A DNA stretch of 64,000 nucleotides from Boothiomyces macroporosus (lineage: Eukaryota; Chytridiomycota; Chytridiomycetes; Rhizophydiales; Terramycetaceae). The stretch covers positions 18,280-82,279 of the forward strand of contig JADGKB010000063.1 in NCBI GenBank assembly GCA_027604185.1, read 5' to 3'. Shown here in pieces: positions 1 to 64,000 of this stretch. The translations under genes and the position numbers were made by a program. Below the pieces are notes generated by a model. That model worked only from the letters and a program-made list of their open reading frames with translations. It did no database searches and was not told the origin of the DNA. The number at the start of each line of letters is the position of its first letter. The first letter of the stretch is position 1.

Positions 1-1540
1 GTTTTTAATAAAGTTGATTTGGTTTGTGTAAAAAGGGAATAGTCGGTATACATCTGACTTGGTATATATAGTCAAGTAATTTGCATTGCCAAGGTCATTC
101 TTTGCCCCACTAATCTTCATATCTGATCCAATTGGCTGAAAATAGTAATGCTTTATGGATTTCAACTGGATTTGTATGCACAAATCCCATATTTCATTCT
201 GCTCCAGCTCTATTGCTCGACTAGCCAACGCTAATGGAACACCATACCAAAGTATTTCTGATGTAGTAATTTGGAATTTCCCGCTGAAATCGGAGGCAAA
301 CACCCCCAAATCCTGAAATTCCGCGGAATTAGTCTCAACTAGCCGGTTAAGAATTGGGTCCACTTCAACCCAAATATTCTTTATCTCTAATAGTAATGAT
401 TCTTCAGAATCCTCATCCTTTGATCCAGTGTTCAGCTGTTCTCCCAGAGCGAATATCTAATTAAAAAATATTTACCGACATGTCGGACCCAAATCTCCCA
501 ATTTCCGGGATATTTTTTTCATCAGTCTTGAATATATTTCTCTCTTGCTTTTCGTTCTTCTTTTTGGTTAGCATCTAAGCATTAGAAAACCCTGACCTGC
601 ATCAAAGGTGAAGTGTTAACTGTTGCCTGTAGTTTTGGCGGCTCTTCAAAAGAAGACTTTGTCTCAACTCGGGATAGATTATACTGTAGATTCCTACATG
701 CATCATGGAGCCCAGAAAATGGATCTGGATCGAAAATTGCCAGGATACGTTCAACTAAATAGTTTAATGATATCAAAAATGCGTTGGACAACTTTGCTTG
801 GCAAATATTCTCTATAGTCAAGTATACCAACCATCCAGGATTCTGATATATTTTTCGGCCTTCATTTTCATTGCTTTAATTACTGGATTGGTGATGATAC
901 TTTCATCCCCATTCAGAGTAATTTGAAGCGCTAAAAATCTCTTGACATTGTCGTTAATTGCTTTACATATATGGGCAATAACATCACTGGATGCACGTGG
1001 ATTACGCATTAGATGCTTGATATGTGTAATTGTTTCTTCTGACGGAGAATTGTAGGGAAGCAAGAATATGTTCTACGATTCAACGTATATTTACCTCCCA
1101 AGCAAGATGAAACTCTGAGAATATCCCGCTTGAAGAGTTGCAATCCTCCGTTATTAGTTTTCCGTCAAATATTTGAAGCCAAGAAGTAATATCTACCATA
1201 CACATTTGGATCCTGTCATATAATGGTTCCAAGTCCAGGCAAGACCCAATAAGGTCAACTAGTGCAGTTGCCTCATCCGTGTTTACAAGTAATAGCTTTT
1301 CTCTCAGCTTTCTGATTGTCCAAAAGCATAATATTCTAATGTAGAGATAGTTGGATTGCAAAAGTTTAGTTTACATTTACAGATATAGGTCGAGAAGACT
1401 TGAAAGACACCTTGAACCAAGAAAGTGCTTTTGTTAGCTCAACATTATTGCTATTCTGCCCATCTATATATTTTTGAAGTAGCTGCGTTAGTATATAGTT
1501 CTACTTTGCAAAATGAGTAGTATGTTTGATGGTGAATCAT
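1..1540 (-). CDS. Unidentified protein, N-terminal part (cut by window edge)
   Basis: I do not recognise this protein. The ATG at 1540 lies 35 bp below the desaturase stop and opens a spliced frame of at least 471 codons that runs off the left edge. Introns fit at 1483-1504, 1359-1380, 1073-1094, 812-831, 575-596 and 457-475. The product is mostly helical, with phrases such as ATALVDLIGSCLDLEPLYD and GVPLALASRAIELEQNEIWD, and a short Lys/Glu-rich linker near residue 290. No signal peptide or membrane segment is visible. The 1359-1380 intron has no in-frame AG acceptor and seems to end in TG, as in two other genes here. A helical-repeat scaffold protein is a possible reading but only a guess. 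Confidence 0.6.
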
Positions 1541-1574
1541 GAACGCGAAAAGAGTAACAACGATTATATATTTC

Positions 1575-2683
1575 TTAATTGCTTTTTGCGTGACGTTTTA
1601 CACGGCTGTACGGAGAAATATGTGGGAACAGAATAAAGTTTACGATAGTCATAGGCCATGACTTTACTTGAGGAAGGTCATTGTAGAATTCAGGAGCAAT
1701 TTTTCGTACAAGAGGGAGTCTGGACCCAGGAATGCGAGGGAAATCATGATGCTCGTTGTGATAACCTACGTTGTAAGCCAAGAGGTTAAGTGGGCCGTAG
1801 TAAGAATAAGTTTCGTATCCTTCAACAAAAACATAGTGTTCAGCGATAAAGTGGCCAGCCATTGGATGAAGAGAGCCGCTCAATACTGTGCAAGTAAGGA
1901 AGTAGTAAAATGGATTGGGACCCCATGCCCAGATCATCAAGAACATTGCAGAGAATTGGAAAGCCCAATTTGCAAAGTGCCAAAAAGTAAATGTTTGGAG
2001 TCTTACTAACATTGGTCGTAAAGCAGAGTTAATCAATAGTTACCATAAAACAAGATTTGGAAGATGCAGAAGAATAACTTTCCAAGAGTAGATTGGAACA
2101 AGATCCCTTCAATTTTGGTTGGCAGGTCAGTATCCACACCGTCAACCCCTTGCAAAGTGTGGTGCTCCATATGGTAGCCCCTGAAAGCAGTACAGTATGG
2201 AATACCAATTGGAAGATTGGCAAAGAATCCTAGCAGTCTGTTATGGAGTGGCTTCTTGAAAGCTAAAAAATGAGAAATTTCATGAATAGCCAAAAATAAA
2301 GAATGGGTAATAGTAGCTCCAAATACATATGCGAGAATCTACATTTAGTATTAATATACCCAGTATTGAGCAGTCCACATTTTATCCTTCAAGTAGTAGG
2401 CAAGAGCAAACTGTGCAGACACTAAAAACAACACAGAGTATTTGGTCTTTGGGCAATGACCGTACAGTTCCTGGATTTGAGGATACTTTTGTAAAATAAT
2501 TTTTCTTCTAGTTCGGTGAGGTTCGTCTGAAGTTTCATCCCAACGAAAGTCCTGTTTAGGGGCTGGAAAGCCTTTGTCTCCCTTCTTCAATGGAGGGTAA
2601 GAGCCGGAAAACGGTTTGTTGTTAGTAGACAAGCTTTCAAACTGTTCCAACAATTCTTTTTCCCTGTTCTCGCTTGTCAACAT
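1575..2683 (-). CDS. DES1: Sphingolipid delta(4)-desaturase (dihydroceramide desaturase, DES1 type)
   Basis: This enzyme introduces the C4 double bond into dihydroceramide at the ER membrane. The spliced protein is 355 aa, normal for the family, with three exons (introns 2339-2359 and 2024-2043). The N-terminus carries the lipid-desaturase start region (DFRWDETSDEPHRTRRKIIL). All three histidine boxes of the di-iron site are present: HEISH, HMEHH and HNEHH, between hydrophobic membrane segments. The tail has the typical FPRIPGSRLP and an Arg/Lys-rich end. The second intron is best read as a 20-mer ending in TG. That reading preserves the family motif FYALRP, whereas the canonical 38-nt alternative would delete part of it. 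Presence suggests the organism makes 4,5-unsaturated sphingoid bases for glucosylceramide. Confidence 0.95.
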
Positions 2684-61323: not shown

Positions 61324-61728
61324 CTTGTCGGTCGAGAAAAAGTAGAGTTTTTATGTTCACAGACCGCAAGGTGGTACAAGCGAATTTCGTGCTAATCAGA
61401 GGTGACTCACGAAATGAAGCTGATAGGAATAATCTAGTAGCTTCTATCACTACCGTCGGATGACCATTTTCTTCTCGGATAGAATTCATTGAGCTACTAG
61501 ATTGTTTCCCTTTTCGGTAATGGCTTGCGCTTTTCCCTTTATCAGGATAAACATCGGATATACTTTGAATTACTATTCATTAGGATGCCTCTGGCTGCTT
61601 GATGATCAAAGACTGCTGGAGTTGTAGCATTCTGTGTGTTAGCAACCATTACAAAGAGGCTTGGAGATACTCTCATCAACCGAGGTTTTTCCTTCATCTA
61701 CAAAAACACAAGTTTTTCTTTTTTTGTT
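61324..61728. other. Shared spacer between two head-to-head ABCC genes
   Basis: About 400 bp separates the start codons of the two divergent ABCC paralogues. I see no conserved inverted symmetry, repeat or RNA gene in it. Confidence 0.5.
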
Positions 61729-64000
61729 ATGGATTTAAGTTCTGCGATAGACTTTGTCTTGCAGCATGCCCAAGTCATCAACTTTTCGGGCTCAATAATA
61801 TTCGGATTATGGTCAATGATTAATTTCCTCTATTACAATCATGTGGACAAGAAACGTAGAAGTGGGTATCTGGAAATTGGAGAGGAGATTGTTGATATCC
61901 CACCCACCAAATTGGAGTATCTGATTTTAGTCTCTGGATTTGCTCAGGCTATCGCTGGGATTACATGTGCTGTCTTTGCGGTATTAAAACAACTGGACGA
62001 CATACAAATTTCCTACTCTTGGTTTATCGCTATTGGATGGGTAAGCGGGTTTAATTCTAGATTTTCCAATCATTGACAGTGTTAATTTCTACATCTCCGG
62101 TTTCTATTGCTCCAAGATACTTTATCTACTTGTATCTCTTGGAAATATTCAACCAACTTTTAATTTGCGTGAAATCAAATTCTGATATGCTTGTTGCAAA
62201 TCAGGTGTTGCTTGGATTCAATATTCTCCTATTTGTTTTACAGATAATCAATCCTGTGAAAAACGCTGAATATCTATCAAAGCATTTACACAATGGCAGA
62301 ACTCCTTCGATTGAAGATTTGGCATCGCCGCTCTCATTCGTAACATTTGCGTGGGTTGAACCTTTGCTATTGCTAGGAACTCAAAAACACTTGGAAGAGG
62401 AGGATTTACCTAGCTTATCGAAAAGGGATGAGATGAATTACATTATTACAAACTGGAAGAGATTTAGAGTGAATAGAAAGAACTCTGTGATTTATGATAC
62501 TATTATATTTTCATTAAGATATGCGGTATTTCAGCAATTGGCTGCGATAATCTCGACCATTCTGGATTTTGCCAAGCCATTTTTCATCAACAAACTATTA
62601 AACTGGATCCAGCAAAAGAAACCAGAAGATAGTTTGATGCCTGGGGTATATATCTTGCTGGCAATGTTCTTGGCCAATTGCACAAGAAACGTTCTTTATG
62701 CCCACATTTACCTTAATGCCCGTCATTGGGGAATGCAAATTAGATCAGTATTTATTTACGAAATCTTCAACAAGAGCTTAAGAAGAGTCGCTGGTGCTAC
62801 TGATAAAGACAAGAAAAGTGCCAAAGCCTCACATGGTAGAATCGTCAGTTTAATGTCTGGGGATACAAATGAAATCAGATACTTTATCACTTTTATCCAC
62901 ACCTTGATTATTGATATGCCTATTACTATAACTTTATCGGTGCTTGGATTGTGGTACTTGATGGGACCACCAGCATTTGCGGGATTATTTGTAATTCTTA
63001 TTACTGGGCCATTGTCTGCGCTAATTATGAAGCGACTTTACAAGATCATGAAAGTTATTCGTTCTTTTGTTGATAGAAGAATTCAGTTGACAAATGAAGC
63101 ATTGCAGTGTGTAAGAATTATTAAATACTTGGGGTGGGAGGTAATTCATTTTTTATATAGCCACAATTTGTAGAAAGAATCGTTAAAGCAAGAGAAGACG
63201 AATTGAATTCTAGACTAAAACAAGTATTTACCAGAATGCTGTTGGTTATTGTTGAGTGGGGAGCTAGTGTTATGGTTACATTTACCAGTTTCATGTTTTA
63301 CACTGTTGTTGCAGGGCACGAGTTGGATGCTGCCACTGCATTTACCAGTATTACATTATTGTCCATGATATCAGATGCGCTATCGGATATCAGTCAAACT
63401 GTGACACAAGTTCTTGATATCAGAGTAACTATTGGTAGATTCAACAGCTTTCTAGAAGAAGAAGAACTCGACAAGTATACAGATGAGCATACCAATATGC
63501 CTACAGAAACTGAAATTGCTATTAAAAATGGAGAATTTACTTATAGAACTGCGCCATCTTCTGAAGAGGAATCTACGTTCACACTTAGAAACATAAACAT
63601 TGACTTTCCGTCAAAGAAACTCACAGCGATAATTGGGCCAACAGGAGCAGGAAAATCTTCACTATTAGCATGTTTACTTGGAGGTAACTAATTATAACTG
63701 TAGAGTTGAAGAAACTAAACGGAAACTATTTCATTTCGGAAGCACATCTTCTTCCAGATTCAGATATGAAAAAGAGTGATGTTGCATATTGCCCTCAAAC
63801 TGCATGGTTAATGAACGGAAGTGTCCGAGATAACATTTTGTTTGGAGAGGAGTATGATGAAGAAAGATATTACAAAGTAGTGAAAGCTTGTGCATTGTTG
63901 AGGGATTTACAAACGCTTGAGGGTGGTGATATGACTCAAATTGGCGAAAAGGGTGTGAATTTATCTGGTGGACAAAAACAAAGAGTATCGCTTGCTAGAG
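61729..64000 (+). CDS. ABCC (MRP/YCF1-type) transporter paralogue (cut by window edge)
   Basis: ATG 61729 opens [19 protein letters not shown]. Three 20-nt introns are spliced (one after FIAIGW, one after YLGWE, one inside LGE of NBD1). The order matches the minus-strand neighbour: TMD0-like region, [23 protein letters not shown]1 with [16 protein letters not shown], then NBD1 Walker [12 protein letters not shown] and signature LSGGQKQR. It runs off the right end before Walker B. It is clearly diverged from the minus-strand gene but shares domain layout and close intron positions, so an inverted duplication is likely. Confidence 0.9.

Follow-up and report, generated by a model that had tools for sequence, protein, structure and literature searches.

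Very short introns have been described from several lineages. For instance, the heterotrich ciliate Stentor coeruleus is reported to have introns of 15-16 nucleotides (nt), present in 18% of its genes (PMC9505925), and the introns of Encephalitozoon cuniculi were ranked by their authors directly after those of Paramecium and nucleomorphs for shortness (PMC3629993); a fungal survey terms a mean intron of 63 base pairs (bp) relatively short (PMC8476143). Here we describe the introns of Boothiomyces macroporosus, a chytrid fungus (Chytridiomycota, Rhizophydiales, Terramycetaceae) with an assembly of 15.2 megabases (Mb) in 216 contigs, on the basis of a 64,000-nt stretch (G000:C63:18280-82279, hereafter the window) and samples of other contigs. 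Boothiomyces is free-living and culturable. Nearly all introns called in the window are 19-23 nt long, and they are almost certainly ordinary U2-type spliceosomal introns that have shrunk close to a size floor. A first-pass annotation of the window had proposed that such ultrashort introns occur genome-wide, and they were indeed also found in the 20 stretches sampled from other contigs.

Length distribution, splice signals and spliceosome

The analyzed sequence, 264 kilobases (kb) of the 15.2 Mb, consisted of the window and a 10-kb stretch from each of 20 other contigs, and the counts below refer to this sequence unless the window is named. Our gene finder combined a codon model with GT..AG introns of 15-150 nt, all lengths being equally likely (flat prior), and was trained on the same 264 kb. 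It called 258 introns in 131 genes over the 21 sequences, 203 of them 19-24 nt long with a mode of 20 nt (24 introns of 19 nt, 91 of 20, 45 of 21, 36 of 22, six of 23, and one of 24); three calls were of 16-17 nt and 52 were above 24 nt. The length distribution has a single peak and the narrow range below 25 nt that characterizes ultrashort-intron genomes; the range of 19-24 nt given by the first-pass annotation stands, refined to essentially 19-23 nt. A refined model, in which both the signals and the length prior were learned, placed 329 of 344 introns at 19-24 nt, a count that we treat as annotation and not as proof given the learned prior. In the window, the refined model called 86 introns, 82 of them at 19-23 nt (12 of 19 nt, 34 of 20, 20 of 21, 13 of 22, and three of 23) and four longer (42, 63, 117, and 152 nt), and three further introns were placed by eye, that is, one of 24 nt in eL43 and two of 21 and 22 nt in QCR6. 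About 86 introns are credible in the window in total, compared to about 95 in the first count. Intron density is 1.75 per kb of coding sequence, with at least one intron in 106 of the 140 modelled genes.

Alternatively, intron size might vary freely as in other fungi, with our sample over-representing the shortest introns. Very short introns are likewise present in the fungal relative E. cuniculi (PMC3629993), and seven long calls in other contigs (below) are the remaining candidates for a freer size range. However, the one narrow peak at 19-23 nt, present even under the flat length prior, together with the refined count (its learned prior notwithstanding), makes this alternative very unlikely. 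When all 256 donor/acceptor dinucleotide pairs were tried on the window, GT-AG gave 30 of 49 introns at 18-24 nt compared to 1,082 of 9,675 (11.2%) for the other 255 pairs pooled, and the next-highest single pair, GG-TA (17 of 46), corresponds to GT-AG displaced by a single base.

The introns also share a common internal anatomy. Donors carry A at position +3 in 89% of the flat-prior calls, and the commonest base at both +5 and +6 is T (not G at +5) among 149 introns of 20 nt. A branch-like match was found in 168 of 203 short introns, and the pentamers TTAAT (66 introns), CTAAT (35), TTAAC (27), and CTAAC (10) account for 138 of the 203, in agreement with the GTA donors and YTAAY-like branch sites noted at first pass. 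In the matched introns, the branch A falls at nucleotide 14-16 in 151 and is followed by a tail of 5-7 nt in 156. The A+T content of short introns is 70.8%, compared to 60.5% in coding sequence. When every dinucleotide was allowed to end an intron at one equal penalty (the any-acceptor run), 341 of 350 acceptors were AG, the others being five TG, two GT, one AA, and one AT; in the corresponding any-donor run GT started 340 of 347 introns, with seven non-GT donors.

These features are those of U2-type introns, with GT-AG ends, a branch site complementary to the GUAGUA of U2, and a donor to which the 5' end of U1 (ATACTTACCT) is complementary. The U1 gene, which begins with ATACTTACCT, scored 68.8 bits, slightly below the 69.5 of Rfam; U2 is encoded by two genes, both with GTAGTA, and U6 carries ACAGAG, read on the strand opposite to the printed one. 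Slu7 and Prp18, both second-step factors, and SF1 were found, and a U2AF-large-like gene gave a partial match below the curated cut-off. Loss of second-step factors, as might be imagined with so short a tail, is ruled out for Slu7 and Prp18. RED is reported to be needed for short introns in human cells (PMC6692369); RED_N and RED_C had no six-frame match in the whole genome, and none in the control genomes either, so that an absence of RED is not demonstrated by this search. Hence, with standard pairing sequences in U1, U2, and U6 and with Slu7, Prp18, and SF1 kept, the earlier statement that spliceosome geometry must be adapted is not supported.

The extreme shortness of the segments could instead suggest removal by something other than the major spliceosome, such as self-splicing, the minor spliceosome, or DNA elimination. 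Self-splicing introns, however, are too big for 20 nt, the GT-AG ends and YTAAY motif fit U1 and U2, and canonical U1, U2, and U6 (the small nuclear RNAs that our search covered) are present along with second-step factors; we therefore consider such a route highly improbable.

Homologs and public gene models

We read 34 junctions in six genes against homologous proteins. Two fall outside the alignments, and 29 of the 32 inside are gap-free relative to most of the homologs shown (CCDC146, 10 of 11; DUF2009, 4 of 4; NOG2, 4 of 5; gelsolin, 3 of 3; RUVBL2, 5 of 5; and RPC1, 3 of 4, where the alignment covered the first 329 residues only). The remaining three sit in variable stretches with length differences of one or two residues. 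This result bears on whether the gene finder might have bridged frameshifts, sequencing errors, or lesions in pseudogenes instead of introns. A finder allowed to skip 15-150 nt does bridge lesions, the flat-prior calls above 24 nt (52 of the 258) have weaker acceptor signals, and other dinucleotide pairs brought similar score gains. Yet a length peak at 20 nt, with GTA, YTAAY, and AG each in a fixed place, is not what lesions would produce, nor would homologs run without gaps across the junctions, and hence there is very little probability left for this explanation.

CCDC146 (39058..42177, minus strand) has 12 exons and 11 introns of 20-22 nt (42146-42167, 41951-41970, 41732-41751, 41544-41563, 41056-41075, 40645-40665, 40457-40476, 40316-40336, 39696-39715, 39448-39467, and 39257-39277). 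Its 10 gap-free junctions were judged against most of nine homologs, and the first junction lies in an unconserved N-terminus; at the last, an additional residue is present in two homologs. Two junctions are disturbed in the Terramyces model, and one exon is missing from the B. macroporosus and Globomyces models. The DUF2009/B-box gene (17196..19080, minus strand; introns 18877-18896, 17972-17990, 17764-17783, and 17642-17664, the third being GT-TG) was compared with eight homologs outside Boothiomyces and Terramyces. In NOG2, the gene for nucleolar GTP-binding protein 2 (51755..53909, plus strand; introns 52002-52021, 52156-52177, 52427-52447, 52607-52758, and 53269-53288), the reference was the best solved NOG2 chain (6lss), and one junction lies two residues from a 2-residue gap. 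A gelsolin/fragmin-like gene (19477..20642, plus strand) has introns at 19496-19515, 19722-19742, 19858-19877, and 20244-20262, the first outside the alignment with the best solved gelsolin chain (2fgh).

Reading frame and family motifs had been described as restored upon splicing, and QCR6, eL43, and CCDC146 could all be rebuilt as claimed. QCR6 (10977..11249, plus strand) has introns of 20, 21, and 22 nt (11017-11036, 11156-11176, and 11195-11216), with an 18-nt exon (11177-11194) between the last two and a spliced product of 69 amino acids. In eL43 (4413..4715, minus strand), an intron of 24 nt (4686-4709) follows a first exon with 6 nt of coding sequence, and the spliced product has 92 amino acids. 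The family identity of these two genes is presumptive.

Public gene models already use many of these introns, which are thus partly annotated. Searches with CCDC146 and DUF2009 retrieved the NCBI proteins HK103_006168 and HK103_006159 of the same contig. Judged from its protein, the NCBI CCDC146 model agrees with ours in 8 of 11 introns, places one acceptor 3 nt upstream, and skips the 120-nt exon between the other two; the model of Boothiomyces sp. JEL0838 agrees in 10 of 11 and retains one 21-nt intron, which adds seven residues to its protein. For DUF2009, the NCBI model loses nine conserved residues and the Terramyces model seven. In sum, around introns of this type the public models for this contig are missing one exon as well as conserved residues.

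Several observations weigh against our interpretation of the segments as ultrashort spliceosomal introns. The introns are known here from DNA and protein comparison, and splicing of the RNA is what we infer from these. By score gain GT-AG was third among the 256 dinucleotide pairs, and consequently it is the length peak, not the gain, that we take as evidence. About a fifth of the flat-prior calls (52 of 258) are longer than 24 nt, and the rule used for branch sites finds no match in 35 of the 203 short introns. Stop-free introns with a length divisible by three almost entirely escape the gene finder: an in-frame stop is present in 67 of 69 called introns of 21 nt compared to 99 of 149 of 20 nt, and a stop-free 21-nt intron of RUVBL2 (L017:6764-6784, minus strand) was seen via homology only, as an insert of seven residues that retention would add to the protein. 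Further, self-training with a weak intron penalty and without strand resolution diverged, giving 1,313-1,459 introns past round one, 19-21% of them at 18-24 nt (with the mode still at 20 nt); a stricter scheme took its place. Finally, 11 calls above 24 nt were left in the any-acceptor run, namely an intron of NOG2, three doubted ones in the window, and seven in other contigs. In the window, the 63-nt intron seems to fuse two neighboring genes, and the 42- and 117-nt introns, in our reading, precede the likely start of a BAG-like gene. At least two long flat-prior calls (91 nt in L011 and 149 nt in L019) were rejected, as each looks by eye like two short introns flanking a small exon.

TG acceptors and long introns

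The GT-TG introns and a snoRNA-like intron of NOG2 are additions to what the first-pass annotation had described. TG ended 5 of the 350 introns of the any-acceptor run (2024-2043 and 17764-17783 in the window, both on the minus strand; L017:6983-7004; L010:8499-8519; and L025:4955-4976), and it makes up five of the nine non-AG acceptors, with a chance P of 1e-4 to 2e-4. The other four (AA, AT, and GT) look like frameshifts or artefacts. Homologs support four of the five TG introns, strongly in DUF2009, RUVBL2, and RPC1 and partially in a desaturase. The 20-nt intron of DUF2009 at 17764..17783 (GTAAGTAATGATTAACTCTG) is the clearest in the window, with the residues restored by TG splicing aligning with eight of eight homologs outside Boothiomyces and Terramyces. 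The junction in RUVBL2 aligns gap-free to the solved chain of RuvB-like 2, and that in RPC1 aligns to the solved chain of RNA polymerase III RPC1; the TG intron of KRI1 lies outside Pfam domains and is a candidate, unproven. A sphingolipid delta-4 desaturase-like gene (1575-2683, minus strand; introns 2024-2043 and 2339-2359) provides a weaker case: its 20-nt GT-TG intron at 2024..2043 (GTAACTATTGATTAACTCTG) came from the any-acceptor scan, and Pfam FA_desaturase scored 87.4 bits with TG splicing versus 83.7 with the next AG. A PDB search found no relative of this protein, and the TG intron is hence argued for by the scan, the Pfam scores, and a presumed conserved motif.

It is conceivable, though less likely than not, that the TG acceptors reflect assembly errors, introns with GG-CT ends, or minor use beside a nearby AG. 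In four of the five, moving both ends by one base gives GG-CT and leaves the mRNA unchanged. The desaturase, DUF2009, and RUVBL2 have an in-frame AG 18, 27, and 45 nt downstream of the TG, respectively, and may use it as an alternative, and TG acceptors in human genes are described as alternatives only, never as the sole acceptor (PMC2374985). On the other side stand the share of TG among the non-AG acceptors, which is hard to obtain by chance, the conserved residues of DUF2009 and RUVBL2 that require the TG junction, and the RPC1 intron, for which no shift to other dinucleotides is possible and which is followed by 60 nt free of an in-frame AG. If TG acceptors prove constitutive, they would represent a departure from what is described for human genes and would allow acceptor identity to be tested against branch-point spacing in the second step of splicing.

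The only long intron of the window with homolog support is that of NOG2 (52607..52758, plus strand; 152 nt), a candidate host of an H/ACA small nucleolar RNA (snoRNA). In its fold (-37.1 kcal/mol, z of -3.0, 1 of 200 shuffles as good), two hairpins are separated by ACATTA and the second is followed by ACA, which gives the hairpins, H box, and ACA box of this class, the boxes being read by eye. RPL7 was picked beforehand, since snoRNAs (snR59/snR39 and snR191; PMC8476143) have been reported from introns of both RPL7 and NOG2 in fungi. Here, RPL7 has introns of 122 nt (L040:1192-1313) and 22 nt, and the spliced frame gives an RPL7-like protein; the 122-nt intron carries a C box (GTGATGA) at 21 and a D box (CTGA) at 84, as expected of a C/D snoRNA. 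Counting against these assignments, no Rfam snoRNA family matched the NOG2 intron at E up to 5, and the gathering search gave no Rfam match in the 122-nt intron of RPL7. Judging by their folds and boxes, the two look like putative snoRNA hosts. Only these two long introns were examined, however, and the idea that long introns need cargo accordingly rests on two cases.

Taken as ordinary U2-type splicing, these observations would fit the following scheme. U1 would pair with the GUA-type donor and U2 with the YUAAY branch site almost immediately after it, and a branch A at nucleotide 14-16 would make a lariat loop of about that size with a tail of 5-7 nt. A tail of that length is too short to include a polypyrimidine tract or to permit scanning, so that the 3' splice site probably falls at an almost constant distance from the branch point; this would also allow TG at a few introns. 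Longer introns would still be removable, and the two examined may have been retained because of their snoRNA cargo. That branch-point spacing mainly sets the 3' splice site, that about 1-1.5% of introns have TG as their constitutive and only acceptor, and that long introns survive only with a cargo RNA is, taken as a whole, a tentative proposal that may well turn out to be incorrect.

Other genes of the window and known systems

Short introns were called in further genes of the window as well, where gene names given without a database match are presumptive. On the plus strand these include a dioxygenase-like gene (2982..4020; introns 3024-3044, 3113-3133, 3280-3298, 3401-3420, 3465-3483, 3577-3596, 3734-3754, and 3776-3794), a large nucleoporin-like gene (21702..27028; 25774-25793, 26234-26253, 26522-26540, and 26939-26959), and an ABC transporter-like gene (61816..64000; 62041-62060, 63141-63160, and 63684-63703). 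On the minus strand, the gene finder placed introns in two unnamed genes (6648..10558, with 8344-8364, 8057-8076, and 7654-7674; and 27086..30918, with 30853-30873, 30616-30636, 30101-30122, 29858-29878, 29760-29781, and 27461-27481), in a putative AMPK gamma-like region in two model pieces, named after the first-pass annotation (11270..12303; 11589-11608, 11530-11550, and 11435-11457), and in what we take to be a helicase-like gene (13103..17085; 16860-16881, 15100-15121, 14654-14673, 14442-14463, 13917-13939, and 13462-13483). A DHX16/Prp2-like helicase of the window is 99% identical to a protein of Boothiomyces sp. JEL0838. Presumed ABC transporter-like gene(s) at 54533..61323 (minus strand) have introns at 60317-60338, 59335-59356, 58963-58984, 56864-56882, and 56792-56813, the fourth being doubtful because of its position at the edge of a duplication. 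Two nearly identical open frames of ABC transporters (752 and 697 amino acids) stand in tandem at 54533-58984 (minus strand), and the 22-nt introns at 56792-56813 and 58963-58984 have the same sequence, which could reflect either a recent duplication or an assembly effect. Elsewhere in the assembly, contigs C185 and C80 hold a cluster of cytochrome P450 matches in which two pairs score equally on both contigs.

If our interpretation is correct, B. macroporosus has an ultrashort-intron genome within an intron-rich fungus with a seemingly ordinary spliceosome, and the lower size limit of introns becomes open to study beyond ciliates and relic nuclei. Surveys may miss such introns; for instance, a pan-eukaryotic study describes leaving out introns below 30 bp in all species (PMC10639083). 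Among the matches listed in the open-licence PMC literature, we found no report of introns like these in chytrids, and, judging by the sources cited here, the view that they are unusual for a fungus appears sound. The parallels drawn at first pass, with nucleomorphs and some ciliates, both hold and can be widened to mikrocytids, heterotrich ciliates, and E. cuniculi (PMC10245619, PMC3629993).

In comparison with these systems, the introns described here resemble those of Stentor in their GT-AG ends, AT-richness, very narrow length range, and a branch A near the end, the Stentor tail being given as 5 nt and its major small nuclear RNAs as found (PMC9505925). Unlike here, the Stentor introns are 4-8 nt shorter, and the organism is a ciliate with introns in 18% of its genes as opposed to 106 of 140 modelled genes. 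Chlorarachniophyte nucleomorph introns, reported at 18-21 nt, have nearly the same size range (PMC10245619), but a nucleomorph is the relic nucleus of an endosymbiont under extreme reduction, whereas the present case is a fungal assembly of 15.2 Mb. Mikrocytid introns (16-17 nt) are likewise described as numerous and narrow in range; however, mikrocytids are parasites with a highly reduced spliceosome (PMC10245619), while Slu7, Prp18, and SF1 are kept in B. macroporosus. For the additional features, human TG 3' splice sites are also U2-type but, as described, only alternatives to a nearby AG (PMC2374985), whereas here conserved protein needs the TG junction; and the introns with snR59/snR39 and snR191 in other fungi lie in the same host genes, RPL7 and NOG2 (PMC8476143), the elements here being candidate C/D and H/ACA ones without an Rfam match. 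Finally, microsporidia are fungal relatives whose introns are likewise very short but few (PMC10245619, PMC3629993); E. cuniculi is reported to have 37 introns in all (PMC3629993), compared to about 1.75 per kb of coding sequence in the chytrid genome described here.

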